64,000 nt of DNA from Owenia fusiformis (taxonomy: Eukaryota > Annelida > Polychaeta > Sabellida > Oweniidae), in the NCBI GenBank assembly GCA_903813345.2, contig CAIIXF020000005.1, positions 374,001-438,000 of the forward strand, written 5' to 3'. The notes under the pieces are model-generated. The model was not told the DNA's origin. It did not search any database and saw only the letters and a list, made by a program, of their open reading frames with translations. Of the stretch, positions 9,352 through 63,932 are shown in pieces (the stretch's first letter is position 1; each line of letters begins with the position of its first letter). The position numbers and the translations under genes were made by a program.

Positions 9352-10593
9352 GGGAGTTTGGCTACTTTCAACTTTGAATTTTCAGAAAATTTTCATGGAT
9401 GTCAATGTCATGAAAAATCAGGCGATGAAACATTTTTATTTTTCATACGTTTACAGAATCATGACACATATCACCGAATGAGTCGGTCCCTGTTAATACT
9501 CACAAAGGCAGGATATATTTCGAAATGTTTTCTTCAGACGGATCAACGTTGTAGATAAGAGATGAACGTGCTTGGTTTCGTTTGCCAGTTTGCACTCGTT
9601 TGGCGCCGGAGAGCTCTCTAACCTGAAGGTGCGATTTATCAGAACTCTTCAAACTGAAGGATTAAACACGTAAACCTCGACGGAAATTCAAACCTCGTAA
9701 ATGTTGTTTTCTTCCCTGAGATACACTCTGTTATCTGAATTATGGTAGGGAATGTAAAGCTCAAGCAATGTAGTATATTTTTCCTTGGATGGATAGCATA
9801 TGGATCTTTGTATTTACTAAGAAAACCAGTCGGAATCGTAAGTTCAGATTTTTTTTTCATGTTTTTTTAATTTTCGTTATTTTTAGGCTAGGCTTACCAT
9901 AGGCCCCGGGCCATAGGCAGTGGTGTAGCCAGGATTTGGTGACCGGGGCTTCTATTTTTATGTTATTCACAACCCCCCCCCCTCATTAGGGTTTCTCAAA
10001 TAATGCAATTTGTACAATTACACTCCCTCCAAAAGTTTGGCAATCCTAACTAACCTTACTTCCTGCGAAAGCTATTTGGATTTTGATATAATAGCTTTAC
10101 TCGAGTCTCTAGCTTACAGCTAGACGGGACTTCACTGATTTCGTATGTACTGTGCTACACGCACCTACACGCACCTAGAACTCATTTTTAATAAATTTTA
10201 TAAATATTTTTAAGAATATTAATCATATTTAGGATGAAGCGTTGCTTGCCTGGATTTAGATATTTCAAAATTTCATTTCGGAGTTTGAAACATGATGAAA
10301 TTTTCTCGCTGTAGCTAAAAATGGCTTCCGGTTCTGGACGTGAATAAAATTTGAAATTATTCTCGCTTAAAGAAATCAAATATAACAATAGATTCAGACA
10401 GGGATGTGAGCTGATGTTCTTCAAATCTATACATAAAGGTATATTTCATATTATTATGCCATATTTACTGTGCGTGTGACACAATGATTTACAATATTTA
10501 TAATACTAAGGCAGCTCAATCTTCCTCCTCAAAGCCGGAATATAGAGAAGGCTTTGGACCGAAGTAATAATAGCTTTCCCACGGAGCATTTGG
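9352..10593. other. No gene seen; fragments of G/C-run repeats
   Basis: Bases 9890-10060 carry a TAGCCAGGATTTGG...GGGG and CCCCCCCCC repeat. It is related in inverted orientation to 12960-13235 and similar to the element at 49741-50121. The rest is AT-rich without a convincing ORF. Short ORFs here end quickly and resemble no family I know. Confidence 0.35.
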
Positions 10594-11070
10594 ACAGCTC
10601 AATGATCGTGACCTTTGAAATCGAATTAAGTCGATCCGCGGCTTACTTTTGGTCTCTAACTGTGTCTTACATCAGTATCATCAATCCGTGTAAGTATTGG
10701 AGCGCTGGTGTACTTCTTTTTCGATCAAGACTTGTAATTGTTAGTCGAGTGAATCGTTTTACTGCCAAAATCCAATATGGCGGTTTCTGCTCGGACATTT
10801 TCGTAAATCTCCGGAGGTTGTCCGAACCTAACTAATTCTCAAAATTCATTTCGTTCGTTGCGTATCTCGCACCTAGCAAACCGCCATATTGGAAATAGGT
10901 CTGTAAAACTTTAACTCGATGAACAATTTACAAATCTTGATCGAAAAAGAAGTACTCCAGCGCTCCAATACTTACACGGATTGATGATACTGATGTAAGA
11001 CACAGTTAGAGACCAAAAGTAAGCCGCGGATCGACTTAATTCAATTTCAAAGGTCACTATTGATCAGCTG
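10594..11070. repeat. Foldback element with 190-bp arms
   Basis: The arms are 10594-10786 and about 10886-11070. Matching words in opposite orientation include GACCTTTGAAATCGAATTAA, CCGCGGCTTACTTTTGGTCT, CTTACATCAGTATCATCAAT and GTACTTCTTTTTCGATCAAG. The core carries CCAATATGGCGG and its complement. No coding capacity is seen. Confidence 0.75.
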
Positions 11071-12136
11071 TTCACTTCTCCGTTTGAGAGCCATAAGTTT
11101 CAAAATCTAACATGGCTCTCGAAGTGAGTAAAACTAACCCATTGGATTATGTATAAAAGCATCTTTAAGTTTGAATTCGTATTTGCATAATTTGTAAAGA
11201 AAAAACTATAATGGGAGGGGAAATATAATTCATTTCAATACCTTCATTAAAGTCAGAATCTGATCTATAGGGGGTGACAAAATTACAAGCAACATGTATA
11301 ATTGACCTACCAATCTATTCCTTACAATATCTAATACAATATCTCCCAAAAGATTCACAACATGTTATAAATTGGTGAAGTTATTAATGATTCAAAGTGC
11401 AAAAATGAGTGGAAAATGTTTAAATTCTCCCAAATAATAAGAATTGTAACCATTCTTAGAGAAAAAATAATACATTTTTGTAAAATTCTTTAGTTTTCCT
11501 GGAATAAAGTATGCACTGCTTTGATTTTTAGAAAATAGACATGACAAGGAATGACATGAGAAAAGTCTGAAAGTAATAGGCTTTATCAAGAAACCTCTCC
11601 CATTGAAATACAACGTAAAAATGATTTTCAAAAATGACCTTGTAGCTTTGTAACTTTAATGTTCACAAAGTAAAATAAACAGGCAACGTGCAAAAAATAG
11701 TCGGACAACTTATAATTAATTTTCTGCATCAAAATATATTTCGGTGAATCTTTTACTGAATACATATCCTGAAATCTGATTTGCCCGAATCCACCATTAT
11801 TTCGACTGATTTCTAGAAGACCCTGGAGCATGATTTGTTTCCATGGTATATCAACTATTTCGCACAATTTATTCTTTAACTTAAGCTAATCCATCTAGGA
11901 TAAAATAAATCAACTCATGCAATGGCTTATCATTATTTTTCAGGAATTTTGTTGGAAGCCAGTTCGGATCAAATGCAAGCTTATTGAAATTGACGCAAAC
12001 ACCCTATACTCCGAAAGATCGTTCTTCTATGATAACTTTTAACAACGCATACACGAAGGCTTTATAAACTTTCCGGGATAGTAGTATTCTGATGAAATAT
12101 CTATTATTCAAATAAGTGGGTCTCGGTTATGCTTTG
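11071..12136. other. AT-rich stretch, no gene seen
   Basis: Only short ORFs in scattered frames are present, with no domain, splice pattern or repeat periodicity that I can support. Bases 11081-11110 match 14318-14347 (GAGAGCCATAAGTTTCAAAA); see the findings. Confidence 0.3.
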
Positions 12137-13340: not shown

Positions 13341-14158
13341 TACACTCTTTTTTTTATTCTGTGAATCAGTTCATATGGTTAAAATAACGAAAGAATGTGA
13401 TGTAACCATGACGTGTCTACTTACCAGCTTGTTCTATGTCATCCATCGGACTAGGTTACATTGTGGAATGCAGCCAAACAGGACACTGAAGGCAACAGCA
13501 TATCGATCTTGATCTTAGCCAAATTTTTGGAAATTTAGATCGTCCATTTTGCAAGCTCAAGTGACTGACACGTGACACATGTCTGATCACGTGACTAGTT
13601 ACTGTATCGATCATGTGACTTAATGACGTGTCACCCAACCATGTCTTCAAGGAAAACAGAAGTAAATATTTTGGAAAATGTTTTCCGAGCATTTGCTACT
13701 GATTATAGAAGGCCCAATTACGCAACGAACGAAACTGCTAAATTGTTTTTCGTGCCTAACAGGCGCAGAACGCAATGAAAGAAATTGCTAAATTGTATTT
13801 TTAGTCTGCTTATTGATCTATTGATTCATAAAGACCTGAAATGATGCATTCAAATAAGACCGCCTCCTAAATGAAAACACTACACATAAGGTGAATAACA
13901 ACGAACTAAAGTTGAAAGATCGCAACGTTCGCTACTTTGTTCAATTCCGGAAATCTCCAAGGGGCTGCAAATGGGAAATTATTTAGATTTTATAACCTCA
14001 GAATACTGCCTTCAGTGTCGTGTTTGGCTGAGTTCCACAATGTAACCTAGTCCGATGGATGACATAGAACAAGCTGGTAAGTAGACACGTGGTTACATCA
14101 CATTCTTTCGTTATTTTAACCATATGAACTGGTTCACAGAATAAAAAAAATGAGTGTA
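13341..14158. repeat. Foldback element with 150-bp arms
   Basis: The arms are 13341-13494 and 14007-14158. Opposed matches include ATTCTGTGAATCAGTTCATA, AAAATAACGAAAGAATGTGA, CTACTTACCAGCTTGTTCTA and GTCATCCATCGGACTAGG. The 510-bp interior has no supported ORF. Arm identity is high, with only a few differences, so it may be a fairly recent insertion. Confidence 0.75.
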
Positions 14159-17367: not shown

Positions 17368-20300
17368 GTGAAGAGTGATTTAGAATCAGATTTACACTTC
17401 TCCAAGTCCAAACTCGGGTGTCTAGACACTGCATTCCTTCTACCATATGCTGTTATACAGGTATTTATTTGAAGAAACTTGTCCTTGGTTTTCAAGACAT
17501 GGAAAAGTCATCCCATCATTGCTAGTAGACACACCTTATAGTCTATTAATAATGTGCAAAAATCTTTCTATCAGATCACCATTTATCTATTTTTCAGATA
17601 TTTCTTGGTCAGCTTGGTGAACGATTTGGAGCAGGAAAGACATTTGGCATCTGTATGTGTCTCTCAGGCGTATCTATGGTACGTATTCAATAGAATTCTG
17701 TATGAATAAATACTCATAAGCATTATACATGGCACATTCTCATAAGACATTTTGGCTAGAAATGGCCACCATTTTTATGTGTGTTATTTTACGTTTTGGG
17801 CCATTTTGTTTATATTTGATATGTGAATGCTCATTCGCATGGCACACTGTCCTATGACACTTTGACTTTGGTTGTAGCTGGCTCAAAATGGTCACTATTT
17901 TTACTGTATGTGTTATTAACATTTTTTACTGTAACTTAAAAGGTAGTGCAGTGATTTTATTTGCGCCTACTTAGAAGCATTACATTTTCTTATACCAACT
18001 TGTTGAGTGAGTGGCCATTTTTATTTGTGTTCTTTTACAATTTTTGCTATAACTGAAAAGGTAATGGGGGATTTTGTAAAAATGGCAGCAATGGCTGTTG
18101 TGTTGCTGTTATCTTGTTACATTTTCTTTACATTTCTAATCAGGTGATGTTTGGCCAAGTCAGTAATTATTATGTGATGCTCACCTTGCTCTTTCTGAGT
18201 GGATCTTCCCAGTCATTATGCTGGCCTAATGCTACGAAGGTGGTTGGTGCGTGGTTCTCAGAAACTGTAAGGAACTCGATGTTTGGGGCGTATGGAATGT
18301 GTGGATTTGCTGGAGGATTAGCAGGAACATCAATAGCAGTTTGTATTAAAATCTTATATTTTGTAAATGTATCATAGAAATGAATGCAATGTGTCATTCA
18401 GATTACTTAATACTGACAAGACCTATCCAGAGGTTGTGGCTGTTAAGATTATTTTACAACATTGTAAATCGATACTGCAAGTCAAAATTTAAAGTGGAAG
18501 CTTATATTTGTCAGAAGTCTATTACATTTCTTACTTCATTTCAGGAGAATTCTGGAGCTTCAATAAGGTGTTTTCAGTCCCATTCTCTTTTCAATATTCA
18601 GGCTCTGAGAAATGCTTTCATTCACTCTTAGCACAATGTATTGATTTAGATGTCTTGTGTTTTAGGTTTACCTCCAAGTGCATTATGGCTGGAGAAGTAT
18701 GTTTTTCACACCATCTATAATTGTGGTAGGTTAATATTCCTACAAGACCTCAAAAGTGTCATACGTGTTGTGTTGTGCCATTATCTTCTCAAAATGGTGA
18801 TCTTCCGCCTGCTAACAGTATTGTAGCAACAATATAATGGCAGTTGAAAATTTGATTTTCTTTTCTGCCTGAAAGCTTTCACCAGAAACAACTTTTGATT
18901 GGCTATTGAGAGTGACCTTTGATGGATAAATACATTGTAAACTTCATGTGTATTTTCTATTTTTCTACATGAATAAATACAATTGTAAACTTCATGTGTA
19001 TTTTCTTCAAGGATAAATACATCGTAAACTTTATGTGTATTTTCTTCATAAATACATTGTAAACTTCGTGCATATTACTTTGTTTCAGATTGGTCTTGGT
19101 ATATTAGTGACCTTAGTGTATAGGCTCCCCATGGAACAGGCTAATTTATGTTATCTCACGGAAGACCCTTCAGCCACCACAGCAACTAAACAATTAACAG
19201 ATCACACTCCACAACAATACAGCTTTATAACTCTGCTCAAAATCAGGTAGACCTAAAAATAAGTCACATGACAGATTGTCTTCAATGAATGATGGGACTT
19301 ATTGCGGTCAAGGTGGGTGGCTTGAGAATAACAGAGGTGGTAGGCCTTAAAGGAATATTCCTTTTCAGACCATTTCTCTCCTGATATTGTAGCTACAACC
19401 ATTATATACTTTCCATATTATGCAAAACACGGGAGAATGTTTCGATATGGTCAACATTGATCATTTTAATATGTAGTGCTCATTTTTAGTGGTTTACCAT
19501 CTTTTAGATTTTAAACAGGAAGCCGTTGACTCTTTTATAACATTGCCCATAACAGTATTGGAAAGTAGCCCAAAATAGTTTCTAGACACCTGGCTCTTAC
19601 TTTCTGCGCAAAAGAATAATTTCAGTGCTTGTGAACTTAGAGTTATCTTAGAGATTATCTCAAGGATTAAATCATTGACAAAATTGAAAAAGCGTATTCA
19701 GCTGGTTTTGTAATTCTTAAATACCTCCTTACTTAAGCAAATTTGAGAATCTTGAAAGATGGCAGCCCATATAAGGAGAGAAATGGCTTGGCAAGAAATA
19801 ATTCTTTAAGGTGGCCAGATATGGGTGATTTAAAGATGGCTAGAGGTAGGTGGACAGGGTTGGGACAAGGTGGGCAGAGATGGGTGGCTTTTAGGTGCAG
19901 AGGTGGGTGATTTAAAGTTGTGAGATGTAGGAGATTTAAGGTGGATGGCCTTACGGTGGGCTGGTTGGTTGACTAAAGATTGACAGAGGTGGGTGGTTTA
20001 AGTCTGGTAGAGGGGATGGCTCAAGGTGGACAGGGTTCGGTGACTTTAGAGGCCAAAGGTTGGTCGATCTAAAATAGGCAGAAGTGGCTGGGGCAGAGAT
20101 GGGTTACTTTTGGACATCAGTCCCTATGTAAAACTTAAGTTGTTATTCATAAGGGTTGACATCAAAAGTCCTAACAACATTATTTCTGAAAATTATCTAT
20201 GTTAACACTCTCTTATATTTTCATAAAGTATTTGATTTTAAGGCATCTCAAAATCTGTATTATTTGTGTCTGTTTGCTTGCTGATTCCAAAGTTTTTATG

Positions 20301-23300
20301 TCACCACCAAAAGTGGTGACATGATGGTCGGCTGTAACAAATTCTTACAACTTCCAATAACTTAACAAATACTATTTAGACTGACTTCAAATGTTTTCAA
20401 AATCGTCTACAAGTTCTCAGATTTGAGATTTGACCTTTTCAAGAGAAGGTAAAAAAAAAGATGAAAGGTCTTTTTTCAACTTGCTTCAAATTGACCAAAT
20501 TTATTTCTCAAAATCATCTACTAGTTCTCAAAAATTCAAATCTGACTTTAGATTAGAGATTCGACCTTGAATGAGCTTCTCAAGTCAAAAAGGTAATTTT
20601 TCAACCTACTTTAAATTGATCAAATTCTTTTTCAAGATCAGCTACAATATTTTAACTCATCATAATGTGAGAAGCTGGTTGGTGATATTTTGTCTTGTCA
20701 ATGCCTTGTTCAACTTCACCCCACGCAGACTGAGCCTGTGGGAAATACAATTTTATTGATATTAAGTGTCAACTACACATATATGAATATATTTGAAGAT
20801 ACAAAATGGCTTAGTTTCAGATATATCGCAAATTTAAATTCAAAAATGACCATTACCTCTGCACCGAATGCTCATTCCTACCGCACCAAATATTTCCCAC
20901 AGGCTCCGTCTGCATAGGTTGAACTTTATTTTGTTCAAACAACATGATAACAACAATCTAATTATTGTATATTTAGTACAGTGAAGGAGGTGGCATTTGG
21001 TGTCCTGTGTTTGAAGGTGGTGAGATATACCATGTTTCTATGGTTACCCATGTATCTGCTAAACCAGGTAAGAATTCATGATCCCAACTCTCAAGTGAAA
21101 TGTTACTGTAAAATTAGACAAAATCATCAAATCATATTGTTATGGTCTCCAACTTTTGTGATCGGGATTGGCATCCAGCGTCTGGCAATCGGTGTTTGGT
21201 GTGTGTACAAATGGCAGGTGATGACATTTTGCATGTTAATGCCTTGTTTAATTGCTAGAATTGCATTGATTGAAAAAGTGCAAAACTGAATTGTAGATGT
21301 ACATTAGTGTACATGTATAAAACATGGCTGCAAATACTTTGTTTTATGTGATAAATGTAATTTTTTAAAAAAGACCATACATAGTAAGAAAACAAGACAC
21401 ACTAAGGCCAGATTATTATTCCTTTGATGCAAATATGATGAAATATAAAATAATACTTTTAACATTTTCTAAAATTATTCATTTTTCTCTTTGTTTCAGC
21501 TAAACTATCCAAAAGAACATGCAGGTCTGTTCTCTATGGCATTTGAGGTTGGAGGTCTAATTGGTAGTCCCCTCATAGGCATCATTCTAGATAGGTATGT
21601 CCATATTACTTCATGTTTCATTGGGGACTTTGTGAGCTTAAACATTTTCTAAATTATGTAATACATTACAAGTTCTTTAAAAAACCTCAAGAAGTTAAGA
21701 GAATGACATATTCATCTATAGCTATACATTGATGGGTGGACTAGTGGGAGAATGTATATTATATTATCTTGTTGGCACATTTTCACACATTGCCATTGTT
21801 TTAAATGTAAAAAAGTTATAAGGACATTAATAAAGCTAGAAATGTAGATATTTAAAAAACATTTTAGGTGATTTTTATGTACAATATTGTTCACCATGTG
21901 CTTGTTGTACTTTCAGATATTTCCAACACAACAGTCTTACTGGGGTGTCATTAAGTATATTCCTGAGTGCAATAAGTCTTATTTTCTACTCAGTGACTTC
22001 CTCATGGGGCATGATATTCAATACAGTATTCATGCTTCTAGCTGGAGCCTTTAACTGTGGACCTGATTCAATTCTCAGTACGTACATTGTCTTCATTACG
22101 TTAGAATCTTGTTTGTCTGATTGTATGAAAGGTCAAAGTAAAATCGATTGATTGAATGGATTGTTTCAACTTTAAATGGTCCCAAGTAAATCCATAGTAT
22201 ACTTAAGCTAAATATAGTATGGCCATTTTCAGTGTCATTCATGGTTAGTGAAATGCAATGATATACCATTTGTTATATCATGATTCTAAAATGGCGCTAT
22301 TGTTAACCCTGATGAACATAACCTTTTGAAGATGCAGTTTCCATTATGCTGTTCTCCAGTATTTCATGTCAACTGACACCAAATTTCAGTATTTTTGTAC
22401 CAAATGTAAATGCATAAGGAGTATACACGTGAATTGTAAATTACCACATGACAAGTTTTTCAGTTTATTTATCCAACATGTTTTCATTATTCTGCTGTTT
22501 CCAGCTGGGTCTCATCCAAACAAACTGTCAGCTATGGTAGCAGGTACAGGTGGAGCAGCTATAGCAGGTGTTGTAAATGGTAGGTTGCCCTTGTTGTCTT
22601 ATAGCAGGTGTTGTAAATGGTAGGTTGCCCTTGTTGTCTTATAGCAGGTGTTGTAAATGGTAGGTTGCCCTTGTTGTCTTATAGCATGTGTTGTAAATGG
22701 TAGGTTGCCCTTGTTGTCTTATGGCAGGTGTTGTAAATGGTAGGTTGCCCTTGTTGTCTTATGGCAGGTGTTGTAAATGGTAGGTTGCCCTTGTTGTCTT
22801 ATAGCAGATGTTGTAAATGGTAGGTTGCCCTTGTTGTCTTATAGCAGGTGTTGTAAATGGTAGGTTGCCCTTGTTGTCTTATGGCAGGTGTTGTAAATGG
22901 TAGGTTGCCCTTGTTGTCTTATGGCAGGTGTTGTAAATGGTAGGTTGCCCTTGTTGTCTCATGGCAGGTGCTGTAAATGGTAGGTTGCCCTTGTTGTCTT
23001 ATGGCAGGTGTTGTAAATGGTAGGTTGCCCTTGTTGTCTTATAGCAGGTGTTGTAAATGGTAGGTTGCCCTTGTTGTCTTATGGCAGGTGTTGTAAATGG
23101 TAGGTTGCCCTTGTTGTCTTATGGCAGGTGTTGTAAATGGTAGGTTGCCCTTGTTGTCTTATAGCAGATGTTGTAAATGGTAGGTTGCCCTTGTTGTCTT
23201 ATAGCAGGTGTTGTAAATGGTAGGTTGCCCTTGTTGTCTTATAGCAGGTGTTGTAAATGGTAGGTTGCCCTTGTTGTCTTATAGCAGGTGTTGTAAATGG

Positions 23301-25386
23301 TAGGTTGCCCTTGTTGTCTTATAGCAGGTGTTGTAAATGGTTGGTTCCCCTTGTTGTCTTATAGCAGATGTTGTAAATGGTAGGTTGCCCTTGTTGTCTT
23401 ATAGCAGGTGTTGTAAATGGTAGGTTGCCCTTGTTGTCTTATAGCAGGTGTTGTAAATGGTAGGTTGCCCTTGTTGTCTTGTAGCAGGTGTTGTAAATGG
23501 TAGGTTGCCCTTGTTGTCTTGTAGCAGGTGTTGTAAATGGTAGGTTGCCCTTGTTTTCTTATAGCAGGTGTTGTAAATGGTTGGTTGCCCTTGTTTTCTT
23601 ATAAGTCCTGGTTATTATTCTTTTGTATGCACTCTATACCTGAAAGTATAATAATGTTATAGTATGTGAGTTGTTGGGTAGATCAAATGTAAGATAAGCT
23701 ATAGTTCATAGTTGACCTCCTAATTATCTCTTCTGCATACAATTTTCATTTGGTTATCTTAACTTCCTTCTTTATCTTAGTTTGTTTCTGAAAGTGACAT
23801 GATCAATAAATGGCTTTTGACTGATCAGATGATAATATGACATGATGAATGTGAATTTGTAGACCAAAAATAGAAGTTCACCCCTGTGAAGATAAGGAGG
23901 TTATTCCCTTTTTGGTTTTAGGCCAATATAAACATGGTAGTAGTGTAGAATTTATATTTTGATGATTCCCTGAGTAGAGGTGTCATCATCGTGAGATATC
24001 ACAGCCTTCTCTCAGTTTCCTTCTAGAACGCCTTGTGCATAGCAGAGATGGTCTGAGTATCAGAATGAGGTGTCATGGGTCAGATATTTTTGGGTCGGGC
24101 CAGAAAAAAGTGTGCGGGTCGGTAATTTCAGGTCAGGTCAAAAGAAAACAGAAAATGAATTTGACTTTGTCGAACCATCAAAGTTTTTGATAAGATCTTT
24201 TGATAACATCATTACTACATATTTTATAAAGAAAAAAGGGGATAGGAACTTAACATTCAATCAATCAGGAAACCCTTTCCATTCATTTGACTTCACTCTT
24301 TCAGTTGACAATAAATCTCTGATCTCATCGAGCCAATTAGAGTTTGTCCTCGAAATACAGACAACTTTCATTCATCTGACACTCCCGCATAGTTAATGAG
24401 CACTTATTTAGCATGGGTTCCTTCCACTTCGCTGATTGGTTGAGAAAGGGTCAGCGTTGTAGATTTAAAATGATTTATTACCCGGGCTGTCAAAGGCACC
24501 AATCTTCGGGTAGGACTGCTAAACTGTAATATAGTCTATACTAGGCAGAGGGTAGTTTATAGCTAGACTCTGCATGCAGGGTGCATTCAGGAAGAAGTAT
24601 AAATCATTTTCTGTTTTTAATTTTTACATATATAACAAATAAGCCAGCTAGAAGTTTGAATTTTTTGCCAGGAATATAAAGCATTTTACAATACACTGTA
24701 ATTCACAATATTCCTGGGTGTTCTGACCCGACCCCAAATTCGTAAGAACTTGTTCGTGACCCGACCCGAGCCTTATGACCTGAGATTGGATCAACTTCGG
24801 GTCGGTGTGACACCTCTATCTCTGAGGATATTAAACCTGCACATCGCTCCAAAACGCAATCTTGGGTTGTTTCGGGGTTGAATTTTATCATTTTGAGCTT
24901 AATGAAAGATTATAGAATGATGAACAAATGGGGCAAATCTTGTGTACAAATACTCACGATAAATGTGTCATTACAAAGATTGTTCATTGAATTGCTTCGA
25001 TTGTCGACGACGATATGATTTTTGGAAGGTTTCTAAATTAAGGAGGTGACGTCACTTCTGAATTATAGCATTCAACATAAGTAGTGGGTGGACTGTCCTG
25101 CTATTATCTAACTTGAAGCCTATGGCAATTCTTTAGACATTTGTGAATTTCGAAAAAATATGAATTCTAAATATGTATGTTTTATTCATTTTCAGGTTTC
25201 GGAAGCTTAGGTACAGTTGTACAAGGACCAATTATAGGCTTTGTGTCAGAATTGTATGGCTTTCAAGCCATGTTTTACATCATGATAGGACTGTCGCTCA
25301 CTGGTGCATATACTGTTTACACTGCTTCTCAACAACTACAACACCTGCAAAATACAGCTGCAAAATATCACACAACAGTTCTATGA
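17368..25386 (+). CDS. SLC37-type sugar-phosphate transporter (MFS), first exon(s) missing
   Basis: Ten coding exons join in frame: 17368-17460, 17598-17678, 18144-18338, 18666-18725, 19089-19246, 20977-21067, 21500-21594, 21917-22077, 22505-22579 and 25196-25386 (stop TGA). Every junction is GT-AG and phases agree, giving 399 residues. Family signs are the exon-1 segment LGCLDTAFLLPYAVIQ, then GQLGERFGAGK, WPNATKVVGAWF, FLWLPMYLLNQ, FEVGGLIGSPLIG and VVNGFGSLGTVVQGP. SLC37 proteins exchange sugar phosphates for phosphate across the ER membrane; the substrate here is inferred only from the family. About 40-60 N-terminal residues with the first helix are absent; exon 1 starts where relatives read ...V-VKS. 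The loop after CGPDSIL is several residues shorter than in human SLC37 members, so a small exon may have been missed between 22078 and 22504. Introns carry several repeats, including a 26-copy array at the exon-9 donor. Confidence 0.85.
17700..18095 (+). repeat. Family C-like internal-unit fragment in an SLC37-like intron
   Basis: Diverged units read 'GATATGTGAATGCTCATTCGC', 'GGCACACTGTCCTATGACAC' and 'ACTGTAACTTAAAAGGTAGTG'. These match the units at 44700-45200 (GTGAATACTATAAGCATGAC, ACACTGTCCAATGACACTTT, ACTCGAAAAGTAGTGGAGCG). No ends are preserved. Confidence 0.5.
19300..20115 (+). repeat. Degenerate GGTGGGTG-rich repeat in an intron
   Basis: Bases 19310-19350 and 19805-20110 repeat words such as GGTGGGTGGCTT, GGCAGAGGTGGGTGATTTAA and AGGTGGACAGGG, with spacing of about 25-30 bp. 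They are strongly diverged. The remainder (19350-19800) is unique AT-rich intron. There is no coding evidence. Confidence 0.4.
20298..20709 (+). repeat. Hairpin-end element, family A, short plus-strand copy
   Basis: The 5' hairpin ATGTCACCACC-AAAA-GTGGTGACAT is perfect (20298 onward). It is followed by a GTAACAAATTCTTACAACTT segment and about two internal units. The end is a diverged GGTGATATTTTGTCTTGTC and AATGCCTTGT. It lies in an SLC37-like intron in the sense orientation. Confidence 0.75.
20700..20935. repeat. Small TIR element (MITE-like)
   Basis: GTTCAACTTCACCCCACGCA...GCCTGTGGGAAATA at the left is mirrored by TATTTCCCACAGGC...TGCATAGGTTGAAC at the right. The AT-rich centre is about 130 bp. 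It adjoins the 3' end of the family A copy and ends about 40 bp before the acceptor of exon 6. Confidence 0.6.
21132..21247 (+). repeat. Minimal family A copy without internal units
   Basis: It joins a 5'-type segment (CATATTGTTATGGTCTCC, GGCATCCAGCGTCTGGC) directly to a 3'-type end (GGTGATGACATTTTGCATG, TTAATGCCTTGT). The tandem-unit interior is absent, as in a copy that collapsed by recombination or a short source element. Confidence 0.55.
22561..23600 (+). repeat. 26 x 40-bp minisatellite made from an exon/intron junction
   Basis: The unit is ATAGCAGGTGTTGTAAATGG plus TAGGTTGCCCTTGTTGTCTT, exactly 40 bp. It is repeated 26 times in register with only scattered substitutions. The first unit's opening 19 bases are the coding end of exon 9 (22505-22579) of the SLC37-like gene, and the remaining 21 are intron starting with the donor GTAGGT. 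So almost every unit repeats the 5' splice site. The unit at 23321 and the last at 23561 carry GTTGGT instead. This is not a CRISPR array because there are no spacers. Confidence 0.95.
24068..24822. repeat. Probable short-TIR DNA element
   Basis: GAGGTGTCATGGGTCAG at 24068 faces CGGGTCGGTGTGACACCTC at 24800-24818. The subterminal regions contain GGGTCGGG / GACCCGACCC words in opposite orientation. A 108-codon open frame inside shows no recognisable domain and is not called. It lies in intron 9 of the SLC37-like gene. Confidence 0.45.
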
Positions 25387-25410: not shown

Positions 25411-25416
25411 AATAAA
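25411..25416 (+). promoter_or_regulatory. Candidate polyadenylation signal
   Basis: AATAAA lies 25 bases after the stop codon of the SLC37-like gene. That would give a very short 3' UTR, so a distal signal may also be used. Confidence 0.4.
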
Positions 25417-26885: not shown

Positions 26886-26889
26886 CGCC

Positions 26890-29492
26890 ATTTACACTAT
26901 CACCATATACACTATCACCATATACACCATCACCATATATACTATCACCACATACACTATCACCATGTACACTATCACCATATACACCATCACCATATAC
27001 ACTATCACCATGTACACTATCACCATATACTCTATCACCATATACTATCACCATATATACTATCACCATATACTCTATCACCATATACTATCACCATATA
27101 CACTATCACCATATACACCATCACCATATATACTATCACCATATAGACTATCACCATGTACACTATCACCATATACACTATCACCATATACACTATCACC
27201 ATATATGCTATCACCATATAGACTATCACCATGTACACTATCACCATATACACTATCACCATATACACTATCACCATATACACTATCACCATATACACCA
27301 TCACCATATATACTATCACCATATAGACTATCACCATGTACACTATCACCATATACACTATCACCATATACACTATCACCATATATGCTATCACCATATA
27401 GACTATCACCATGTACACTATCACCATATACACTATCACAATATACACTATCACCATATACACTATCACCATATACACCATCACCATATATACTATCACC
27501 ATATAGACTATCACCATGTACACTATCACCATATACACTATCACCATATACACTATCACCATGTACACTATCACCATATATGCTATCACCATAAAAACTA
27601 TCACCATATACACTATCACCATGTACACTATCACCATATACACCATCACCATATATACTATCACCATATACACTATCACCATATACACCATCACCATATA
27701 TACTATCACCATATAGACTATCACCATGTACACTATCACCATATACACTATCACCATATACACTATCACCATACACAATCACCATATCAACTATCACCAT
27801 ATACACTATCACCATACACAATCACCATATCAACTATCACCATATACACTATCACCATACACTATCACCATACACTATCACCATATACACTATCACCATG
27901 CACTATCACCATATATGCTATCACCATAAAAACTATCACCATATACACTATCACCATGTACACTATCACCATATACACCATCACCATATATACTATCACC
28001 ATATACACTATCACCATATACACCATCACCATATACACTATCACGATATACACTATCACCATACACAATCACCATATCAACTATCACCATATACACTATC
28101 ACCATGTACACTATCACCATATATGCTATCACCATAAAAACTATCACCTAATACACTATCACCATGTACACTATCACCATATACACTATCACCATATACA
28201 CTATCACCATACACAATCACCATATCAACTATCACCATATACACTATCACCATGTACACTATCACCATATATGCTATCACCATAAAAACTATCACCATAT
28301 ACACTATCACCATGTACACTATCACCATATACACCATCACCATATATACTATCACCATATACACTATCACCATATACACCATCACCATATATACTATCAC
28401 CATATAGACTATCACCATGTACACTATCACCATATACACTATCACCATATACACTATCACCATACACAATCACCATATACACTATCACCATACACTATCA
28501 CCATATATGCTATCACCATAAAAACTATCACCATATACACTATCACCATGTACACTATCAATCACCATATATACTTTCACCATATATACTATCACCATAT
28601 ACACTATCACCATATACACTATCACCATGTACACTATCACCATATACACCATCACCATATATACTATCACCATATACACTATCACCATATACACTATCAC
28701 CATATACACCATCACCATATACACTATCACCATACACTATCACCATATATGCTATCACCATAAAAACTATCACCATATACACTATCACCATGTACACTAT
28801 CAATCACCATATATACTATCACCATATATACTATCACCATGTACACTATCACCATATACACTATCACCATATACACTATCACCATACACAATCACCATAT
28901 CAACTATCACCATATACACTATCACCATGTACACTATCACCATATATGCTATCACCATAAAAACTATCACCATATACACTATCACCATGTACACTATCAC
29001 CATATACACCATCACCATATATACTATCACCATATACACTATCACCATATACACCATCACCATATAGACTATCACCATGTACACTATCACCATATACACT
29101 ATCACCATACACCATCACCATATATGCTATCACCATAAAAACTATCACCATATACACTATCAATCACCATATATACTATCACCATATATACTATCACCAT
29201 ATACACTATCACCATGTACACTATCACCATATACACCATCACCATATATACTATCACCATATACACTATCACCATATACACTATCACCATATACACCATC
29301 ACCATATCAACTATCACCATATACACTATCACCATGCACTATCACCATATATGCTATCACCATAAAAACTATCACCATATACACTATCACCATACACTCT
29401 CACCATATACACTATCACCATAAAAACTATCACCATATACACTATTACCATACACTATCACCATATACGCCATCACCATACACTACCACCAT
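26890..29492 (+). repeat. 15-bp minisatellite array 1 (CACTATCACCATATA)
   Basis: About 2.6 kb of a 15-bp unit CACTATCACCATATA with variants (ATGTACAC, ATATATGC, ATAAAAAC, ATATAGAC). The stretch 27121-27540 has a perfect 180-bp higher-order period. Because the unit is a multiple of three and lacks stops, several frames on both strands stay open for hundreds of codons (HYHHI, YTITI, LSPYT, MVIVY and YGDSV repeats). These are not genes. Confidence 0.95.
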
Positions 29493-29848: not shown

Positions 29849-31171
29849 TCACATGTGATTTGCATCTTTGAAAAGTAGCATCATCTCAGATACTTCATTT
29901 TTAAACATCATGAAGTTGTTCAATCCTTCAGGTAAATGCCCTCCTTTTATCAATGTCGAAACAGTTTTCACATATGCATCACAATCCATTCCTTTGCTTT
30001 CAAACACACACATCCTGGCCTGATATTTGAGGCACAATTTCCTACTTTGAATAAGATTAATTAAATCAAGTTGTCTTTTAATGTTAATACGATGTTCTTT
30101 AAATATAGCATTGAGACGTTGGTGGTTGGGGTCTTCAACACCAAAGGTGATATCTACACAAAACATAATAATTTTGTTGCAGTGTTTTGAATGAACCAAA
30201 CTTTTGTTAGCAGCACATAAATCTGCCCCTTTGTCAATAAGCATTTCCAAATACTCAGTTTTATTCCTTTCAATTGCATAACTTAATGCACTCTTCCCAC
30301 TGTTGTCACAAGTATTCAAATCTGCGCCATTATTGATCAACATTTGCATATAGTCAATGTCAACACAATCAATTGAATAGATTAAAGCAGTTTTGCCAGA
30401 TTTGTCAACAGCATCTACATTAGCTCCATTTGCAATGCATTCTTTCACACATTCTTTGTTATTCTCTTCAATTGCATACATCAATACAGTTTTCCCATAT
30501 TTGTCATCCATATTTACAACTGCTCCACTGGCAAACAACATATGGAAGCAATCATTTCTATATTTCACAATTGCATACATCAATGCATTCATTCCATAGT
30601 TGTTGGTGACGTTTACATCTGCACCACTGTCAATCAGTACCTTCAACACCTCACTTCTATCATTCACAATTGCAGACATTAGTACTGTTCTTCCATATTT
30701 TCCTGCTGCATTTACATCTGCTCCGTTGGCAATCAACTTCTTCACACATTCAACAGTATTACACTCAATTGCATACACTAATGCCGTCTTCCCATCTCTG
30801 TCTGCAGCATTTACATCAGAATGGTTTACAATCAGCAAATCAACACAAACAGTCCTATTCCCCTCAATAGCATACATTAATGCAGTCTTCCCATATCTGT
30901 CAGCAGCATTTATATTTGATCCATTGGATAAACACATTTTCACACTTTCAGTTTTAATACCTTCAATTGCATACATTAATGCTGTCTTTCCGTATTCATC
31001 AGTATCATTTATATTCGCTCCATCGGCAATCAACATCTCAACCAACTTTGCTGGATTTCTTTTAACTGCAGACATTAGGCCTAATGCAATCTTTCCTTGT
31101 TGGTCAGTGGTAATTGTATTTGCTCCATTCACAATCAATATCTCTACAAACCTTTTTTGATTTCTTTTTAA
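29849..31171 (-). CDS. Ankyrin-repeat protein, 3' terminal exon
   Basis: An open frame of about 440 codons with nine to ten ankyrin repeats of 33 residues, each carrying a G-K-T-A-L-M-Y-A-I type motif and a V-x-x-L-I-x-x-G-A-x-[VI]-N motif. A non-ankyrin tail of about 110 residues follows (residues 330-440, with Cys and basic helices). There is no ATG at the open-frame start; the codon there is GTG after an in-frame TAA. The frame opens in the middle of an ankyrin repeat just after minus-strand TGTGTGCAG at 31172. I therefore take 31171 as a splice acceptor boundary and the gene as 5' incomplete. The nearest internal ATG is at 31075. No upstream repeat-coding exon is visible between 31172 and 31700. 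Ankyrin repeats mediate protein binding; the partner is unknown. The exon is bracketed by two inverted minisatellite arrays. Confidence 0.8.
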   Translation of the reverse strand, partial: LKRNQKRFVEILIVNGANTITTDQQGKIALGLMSAVKRNPAKLVEMLIADGANINDTDEYGKTALMYAIEGIKTESVKMCLSNGSNINAADRYGKTALMYAIEGNRTVCVDLLIVNHSDVNAADRDGKTALVYAIECNTVECVKKLIANGADVNAAGKYGRTVLMSAIVNDRSEVLKVLIDSGADVNVTNNYGMNALMYAIVKYRNDCFHMLFASGAVVNMDDKYGKTVLMYAIEENNKECVKECIANGANVDAVDKSGKTALIYSIDCVDIDYMQMLINNGADLNTCDNSGKSALSYAIERNKTEYLEMLIDKGADLCAANKSLVHSKHCNKIIMFCVDITFGVEDPNHQRLNAIFKEHRINIKRQLDLINLIQSRKLCLKYQARMCVFESKGMDCDAYVKTVSTLIKGGHLPEGLNNFMMFKNEVSEMMLLFKDANHM

Positions 31172-31177
31172 CTGCAC

Positions 31178-31708
31178 ACATTAATTACTGCTTCCATAAA
31201 TCAGGTAATACATAACATTACAAGACGTGTCTTTTGATTTGAAATGGTTTGTAAAAAACAGTTAAACGATTCAGCAGTAAAAAACATATTTTGCTGTTTC
31301 GCTCCAGAAACTAAGTGTATGTCTACAATTGAAATATGAACAGTGCATATATAAATGACATTAAATAGGTTAGCGCACTGCTCTATTTTATATTTACTTC
31401 CTGGTGTCTACATAATTATGTGTAAACCTTCGTTTATGAGCAATACTGAATTGATTCCATCAATCATTTACTTCTGTTTTTGGAGACATCAAATTTAATA
31501 ACATGACGAATGATCATTACGTCCTCATTATCTCTCTCTCTCTCTCTTATTGTTTTTATTTTTCAATACCTGAGAGTGTAGAATTAATTTTACTGGCTAC
31601 TTGAATGAACATACAGTATTGCTTGCTGCTTAGTTGCATCTCAGTTGCTAGGCTGTATTATGTATGAATTAATTAATTGTTAATAAGTATGATTAATTAA
31701 CTCAACTA
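31178..31708. other. AT-rich region upstream of the ankyrin exon
   Basis: It contains a (CT)n tract near 31533-31550 and palindromic ATTAATTAAT words near 31667-31700. No ORF is seen. It is probably an intron, or else the promoter region if the gene is a single exon starting internally. Confidence 0.3.
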
Positions 31709-32903
31709 CATATATGGTGATAGCGTATATGGTGACAGTGTATTAGGTGATAGTGTTTGGTGATTGAGTATATGGTGATAGTGTATATGGTGATAGTGTA
31801 CATGGTGATAGTGTTTATGGTGATAGTGTATGGTGATAGAGTATATGGTGATAGTGTATTAGGTGATAGTGTATATGGTGATAGTGTTTATGGTGATAGT
31901 GTTTATGGTGATATTGTACAAGGTGATAGTGTATATGGTGATAGTGTTCATGGTGATATTGTACATGGTGATAGTGTATATGGTGATAGTGTATGGTGAT
32001 AGAGTATATGGTGATAGTGTGCATGGTGATAGTGTATATGGTGATAGTGTATATGGTGATAGTGTATGGTGATAGAGTATATGGTGATAGTGTATATGGT
32101 GATAGTGTATATAGTGATAGTGTACATGGTGATAGTGTATATAGTGATAGTGTACATGGTGATAGTGTTTATGGTGATAGTGTACAGTGTATATGGTGAT
32201 AGTGTATATGGTGATAGTGTTTATGGTGATAGTGTTCATGGTGTTTATGGTGATAGTGTATATGGTGATAGTGTTTATGGTGATAGTGTTCATGGTGTTT
32301 ATGGTGATATTGTACATGGTGATAGTGTTCATGGTGTTTATGGTGATATTGTACATGGTGATAGTGTATGGCGATAGTGTATATGGCGGATAGCGTATAT
32401 GGTGATAGTGCATATGGTGAAAGTGTATATAGTGATAGTGTACATGGTGATAGAGTATCTGGTGATAGTGCATATGGTGAAAGTGTATATAGTGATAGTG
32501 TACATGGTGATAGCGTATATGGTGATAGTGCATATGGTGAAAGTGTATATAGTGATAGTGTACATGGTGATAGTGTACATGGTGATAGTGTATATGGTGA
32601 TAGTGTATGGCGATAGTGTATATGGTGATAGTGCATATGGTGAACGTGTATATAGTGATAGTGTATATGGTGATAGTGTTTATGGTGATATTGTATATGG
32701 TGATAGTGTATATGGTGATAGTGTATGGCGATAGTGTATATGGCGGATAGCGTATATGGTGATAGTGCATATGGTGAAAGTGTATATAGTGATAGTGTAC
32801 ATGGTGATAGAGTATCTGGTGATAGTGTACATGGTGATAGTGTATATGGTGATAGTACATAATATGGTGATAGTGTATGGTGATAGTGTATATGGTGATA
32901 GTG
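31709..32903 (-). repeat. 15-bp minisatellite array 2, inverted relative to array 1
   Basis: About 1.2 kb of TATGGTGATAGTGTA units, the reverse complement of array 1. Variants include GTTTATGG, GTACATGG and CATATGGTGAAAG. A larger duplication repeats the GGCGATAGTGTATATGGCGG segment at about 32371 and 32727, 357 bp apart. Frames on both strands are open throughout. It lies upstream of the ankyrin exon. Confidence 0.95.

Positions 32904-41633: not shown

Positions 41634-63932
<22,299 letters not shown>

Follow-up and report, generated by a model that had tools for sequence, protein, structure and literature searches.

In the annelid Owenia fusiformis, the 5' splice junction of a gene encoding a transporter of the SLC37 kind is amplified into 26 tandem copies, and 24 of these carry an identical splice donor. 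All positions given here refer to the window, the whole stretch of 64,000 nucleotides that was analysed. The array occupies positions 22560-23599 on the plus strand and consists of 26 units arranged head to tail, each exactly 40 bp long (unit TATAGCAGGTGTTGTAAATG|GTAGGTTGCCCTTGTTGTCT, exonic part before and intronic part after the bar). TRF reported a period of 40, 26.1 copies, 97% matches and 0% indels (span 22560-23603), and cutting the sequence into 40-mers gave the same picture. It is thus a minisatellite in the usual sense of near-identical head-to-tail units of 10-100 bp. When cut from 22560, ten of the 26 units were identical to the consensus. The 21 substitutions found in 1,040 bases are confined to nine of the 40 unit positions and define nine distinct unit types, which follow each other without simple repetition. 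In this register each unit comprises 20 exonic and 20 intronic bases: the coding exon at 22505-22579 ends with the first 20 bases of unit 1, and the other 20 open the final intron. Twenty-four of the 26 units preserve the donor ATG|GTAGGTTG and with it GTAGGT, and units 20 and 26 read GTTGGT. The 26 copies and the about 24 identical 5' splice sites in series, both proposed in a sequence-only reading of this DNA, were thereby borne out. The division into 19 coding and 21 intron bases given there differs only by a rotation of one base within the same array, and the exon concerned, counted there as exon 9, ranks as the tenth of 11 coding exons in the present model. A DNA search matched the array at one place in the 498-Mb assembly; this search skips common words and gives lower bounds, so that the single place is no proof of uniqueness.

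The gene model joins 11 coding exons on the plus strand (9742-9837, 17368-17460, 17598-17678, 18144-18338, 18666-18725, 19089-19246, 20977-21067, 21500-21594, 21917-22077, 22505-22579 and 25196-25386) to a frame of 431 aa with a single terminal stop, and all ten introns are GT-AG when the first donor of the array is used. The putative start codon lies in the first exon, which contributes 32 aa, with an in-frame TGA just upstream. The penultimate coding exon has 75 nt and is followed by a final intron of 2,616 bp (22580-25195), the second longest of the ten. The last exon includes the TGA, and an AATAAA is found at 25411, 25 bases past the stop codon. No Rfam match at gathering scores was detected in the window.

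The protein matches MFS_1 with an E-value of 3.3e-45. Among the proteins of the PDB set, phmmer found the plant-named Os08g0156600 (1.3e-30), SLC37A2 (4.2e-28) and SLC37A4 (about 3e-13). By family and sequence similarity the host gene is therefore an MFS transporter of the SLC37 sugar-phosphate exchanger kind; transport of sugar phosphates is putative, the best NCBIfam match, TIGR00881, reaching 171.9 bits and staying under its cut-off of 407.75. A search of the own genome with the 431-aa protein recovered all 11 exons, which is no independent support for the gene model, as the query was built from the same exons. Two further matches lie elsewhere on C5 (36% and 27% identity). The first of them, L028 (C5:14.63-14.64 Mb), is SLC37-like and has the homologous motif GIVDGTGSVGAAIGQ (reverse strand, 2906-2956), uninterrupted where the array gene has NG|FG. 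In this paralogue a GT follows GQ, about 10 codons past the point matching the last intron of the array gene. From one paralogue it cannot be told which state, the split or the unsplit motif, may be the older one.

Only donor 1 (GTAGGT, 22580-22585, plus strand) yields the intact protein. Across the junction, the alignment to SLC37A2 is free of gaps (...AIAGVVNG|FGSLG... versus ...AIIDGTGSIG..., phmmer), its nearest gaps lying about eight residues before and nine after it, which identifies donor 1 as the coding donor. The alignment to Os08g0156600 is gapless at NG|FG, too. Among the choices translated, the C-terminus was unchanged with donor 1 alone. Donor 2 gave a frameshifted product of 454 aa with the stop at 25413. 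Use of any of the donors 3-26, or full retention of the intron, would result in a protein of 382 aa (350 aa in the partial frame plus the 32 aa of exon 1), comprising 369 shared residues and 13 new ones and missing the last 62. All of these choices end at the same in-frame TAG (22621-22623, plus strand), so the truncation is independent of the remainder of 40 divided by 3. The earlier expectation that downstream donors damage the C-terminal part thus holds; the reason given for it, that 40 is not a multiple of 3, matters at donor 2 only. With a later donor k the exon would measure 75 + 40(k-1) nt, and the TAG precedes the junction by 36 nt for donor 3 and by 76 nt for donor 4. A reading of the array as exonic sequence was rejected, because the frame closes at 22621-22623.

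Predicted pairing with the 5' end of U1 RNA, taken from this genome (ATACTTACCTG), was -8.8 kcal/mol for 24 of the 26 array donors and -5.0 kcal/mol for those of units 20 and 26. By this model the downstream donors are not weaker than the first one. The nine other donors of the gene ranged from -2.8 to -11.0 kcal/mol; seven are weaker than those of the array, one is equal (-8.8, after 18725) and one stronger (-11.0, after 21067). Exon 10 and its intron together contain 277 GT sites, and better predicted pairing was seen for three of them, all outside the array (after 24117, 24509 and 24800). Given the equal pairing of the downstream sites, the choice must depend on position, exon length or signals in the exon if donor 1 wins. 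A simple rule by which the first donor wins should not be assumed: in DOK7, with two competing donors, the intron-proximal one is described as preferred, being also the stronger one in that case (PMC5585400). By analogy, such a preference would favour the later donors of the array.

We consider it probable that the array belongs to the last intron as a minisatellite whose start happens to lie inside a coding exon, that it has expanded neutrally and that donor 1 is mainly used. A TATA is found at the exonic 5' edge of the array (22560-22563) and again in the intron directly after it (23600-23603, both plus strand), as would be expected of a duplication between short repeats; with four bases the two could also match by chance. 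The founding event may have been a tandem duplication between the exonic TATA (22560) and the intronic TATA (now at 23600), a candidate microhomology, which would have copied the exon end together with its donor. Unequal exchange or slippage would later have expanded the duplication to 26 copies. A block of four units recurs (units 5-8 and 14-17); since shuffled unit orders reach this in 799 of 20,000 cases, it lends modest support to unequal exchange of blocks as its possible source. Variants at unit positions 2 and 37 are limited to units 24-26 at the 3' end of the array, and unit 26, with GTTGGT as in unit 20, may preserve the former start of the intron. Neither GTAGGT (one of nine, hypergeometric P 0.59) nor the 9-nt donor (one of nine, P 0.33) is depleted of variable positions, so that this test, weak with its nine variable positions, gave no sign of selection on the array donors. 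Most likely the spliceosome would join the acceptor of exon 10 to the first donor, giving the exon of 75 nt, and the array would be removed as part of the intron. Low-level use of some downstream donors is probable, and the resulting frameshifted or truncated transcripts would mostly be decayed. We also considered the gain of an intron by the array. In such a case the copies supply both ends of the new intron; here some 1.6 kb separate the array from the acceptor of the coding intron (25195), and this candidate was rejected.

The array might instead act as a length-dependent splice switch, in which more copies lead to more use of donors 3-26 or to more retention, so that array length sets the amount of transporter. 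The equal predicted U1 pairing of 24 donors fits such a switch, as does the single TAG shared by donors 3-26 and by retention. Under the 50-55-nt rule of nonsense-mediated decay, the distances of 36 and 76 nt between TAG and junction mean that transcripts spliced at about donor 4 or later would be expected to undergo decay. The donors carry no sign of constraint, however, as far as the weak test goes, and we regard a switch as unlikely. A parallel exists in human TERT VNTR6-1, an intronic repeat with a 38-bp unit and 24-27 or 40.5-66.5 copies, which is similar to the 40-bp array and is reported to shift splicing (PMC11830802); it differs in acting via an expandable G-quadruplex, and an exon donor is not mentioned in the abstract of that report. 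A variant of the idea, in which copy number works as a splicing rheostat, any choice after donor 2 costing the transcript, and rare in-frame inclusion of 12 or 15 nt is a by-product, appears quite doubtful to us. The array could also load U1 onto the last intron and thereby suppress early polyadenylation at the AATAAA sites 23805 and 24310. U1 telescripting has been described in the literature, and two AATAAA and one ATTAAA do occur in the intron 3' of the array. Base composition predicts 1.31 AATAAA and 1.47 ATTAAA in this part, though, close to the two and one seen, and use of these sites is putative; we hold such a shield to be very improbable. Depletion of U1 by this single transcript looks unlikely, too, judging from the at least 42 U1 gene matches scored genome-wide. 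U1 RNA gene matches lie in a tandem array of their own (G000:C9:23745153-23771556), mostly about 750 bp apart. Finally, long tandem arrays are hard to assemble, and the true copy number might be very different, the array having been collapsed or inflated. Since the nine unit types follow no simple repeating order, a pure artefact is unlikely, even if the copy number may be off, and we attach the least credence to this explanation.

Inclusion of parts of the array as micro-exons was weighed as well. The consensus unit contains a C/T-rich tract, TTATAG, 15 bases and then GTAGGT, which the sequence-only reading had taken for a micro-exon look-alike present in each unit. Such look-alikes exist, and the first downstream one lies at 22605-22619 in unit 2 on the plus strand, preceded by AG and followed by GTAGGT. 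Some units lack them: the first AG, in the form TATAG or TGTAG, is kept in 17 of the 25 downstream units and replaced by ATGG in the other eight. Beyond what was noted earlier, the 15-nt piece is in frame. It adds AGVVN, and the frame stayed open when one, two or three inclusions were translated. In TATAGCAG a second AG (CAG) follows three bases on, which would give a piece of 12 nt, in frame as judged from its length. First AG and GTAGGT occur together in 15 of the 25 downstream units, and in 23 if the second AG counts. An in-frame cassette adding AGVVN repeats to the C-terminal half could be built from these pieces. However, adjacent units would leave introns of 25 nt, compared with 137 nt for the shortest intron of the gene, so that at best non-adjacent units can be joined; inclusion would be possible between distant units only and is unlikely. 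The insertion would furthermore hit a motif that this protein shares with SLC37A2, and one length in three is divisible by 3 by chance. In the fold predicted for 22580-22659 the acceptor is paired with the preceding tract, yet this fold is no stronger than that of shuffled sequences (z -1.27). Altogether we give very little weight to a cassette of this kind. The other four of the five folded stretches had z-scores of -2.56 (units 2-4), 1.13, 0.01 and 0.47; these folds were not taken as evidence for RNA structure.

A sample of twelve 8-kb stretches, drawn from eight contigs (96,000 bases; period of at least 15, at least three copies), contained 19 merged tandem arrays covering 10,935 bases (11.4%), four of the 19 abutting in one stretch; five of the 12 stretches had no array. 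The coverage counts in favour of the neutral reading, the empty stretches against it. The window contains 15 such arrays over 15,896 bases. Some arrays would be expected to touch splice sites in so repeat-rich a genome. A search with MFS_1 for a base rate scored nine of 519 candidates and gave at least 13 matches, lying in open frames 344-739 aa long; these look intron-poor, and no rate of splice-edge arrays was taken from them.

Other repeats were observed within the same gene and around it. At 18924-19088 an intron end stands in four degenerate copies, each 37-46 bp long, and the last one is the acceptor region of exon 6; 35 of 47, 32 of 45 and 29 of 43 columns of the others agree with it (gapped columns included), one earlier copy ends in TTTTCTTCAAG, and a TRF row lies within this repeat (18973-19067). 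We regard it as a weaker, acceptor-side counterpart of the donor array. The first intron holds two inverted repeats. One, at 13348-13494 and 14007-14150, has arms of 84 nt (96%) and 61 nt (98%), 512 and 681 nt apart; the other, at 10591-10786 and 10878-11074, has arms of 147 nt (94%) and 51 nt (73%) and is perhaps a short hairpin-like mobile element, a type guessed at here. Two long 15-bp arrays (26888-29492 and 31711-32903), composed of CCATATACACTATCA and its reverse complement, flank a minus-strand frame of 443 aa (29849-31180) that looks ankyrin-like by eye. Repeats of about 135 bp with GACCTTCAATGACCTTCTCAAGGTC-like motifs were seen at 1174-1702, 20440-20650 and 62062-63455, the second of them inside an intron of the array gene; by eye they seem to be related.

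A minisatellite at a donor junction is of a kind already known, and one clear, direct precedent was found. Turri, Cuin and Porter reportedly described in 1995 that the minisatellite of human IFI6 (6-16, G1P3) provides multiple splice donors. The two cases share that units of a tandem repeat supply splice donors; in the array, the first unit holds the exon end, as translation, alignment and gene model indicate, and the units carry a donor that pairs with U1 by predicted energy. They differ in the gene and in the unit: the IFI6 unit has 12 bp, so that extra units stay in frame, whereas 40 bp lead to a shift and a stop. Two downstream repeat units of IFI6 act as splice donors and give rise to three mRNA species (PMC4526556), whereas use of the downstream donors described here is putative. 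In a potato RdRp gene, a tandem duplication across an intron-exon boundary, copying splice signals as in our case, is reported to have led to intron gain (PMC4974935); there, one duplication made a new intron, while here 26 copies are present and the acceptor lies outside the array. Among the top-ranked open-licence PMC literature matches, none dealt with a donor array of 40-bp units or with a repeat of this type in an SLC37 gene.

The array indicates that a splice junction can be amplified within a gene while the reading frame is kept intact, provided that donor 1 is used. Constructs with two sites are commonly used to study how a choice is made among equal 5' splice sites, be it the first, the last or the one closest to the upstream acceptor. 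This gene offers 24 identical donors in steps of 40 nt, and each choice leaves a readable mark of 0, 40, 80 or more extra bases. How the splicing machinery selects one among many identical sites can thus be tested on a natural example.
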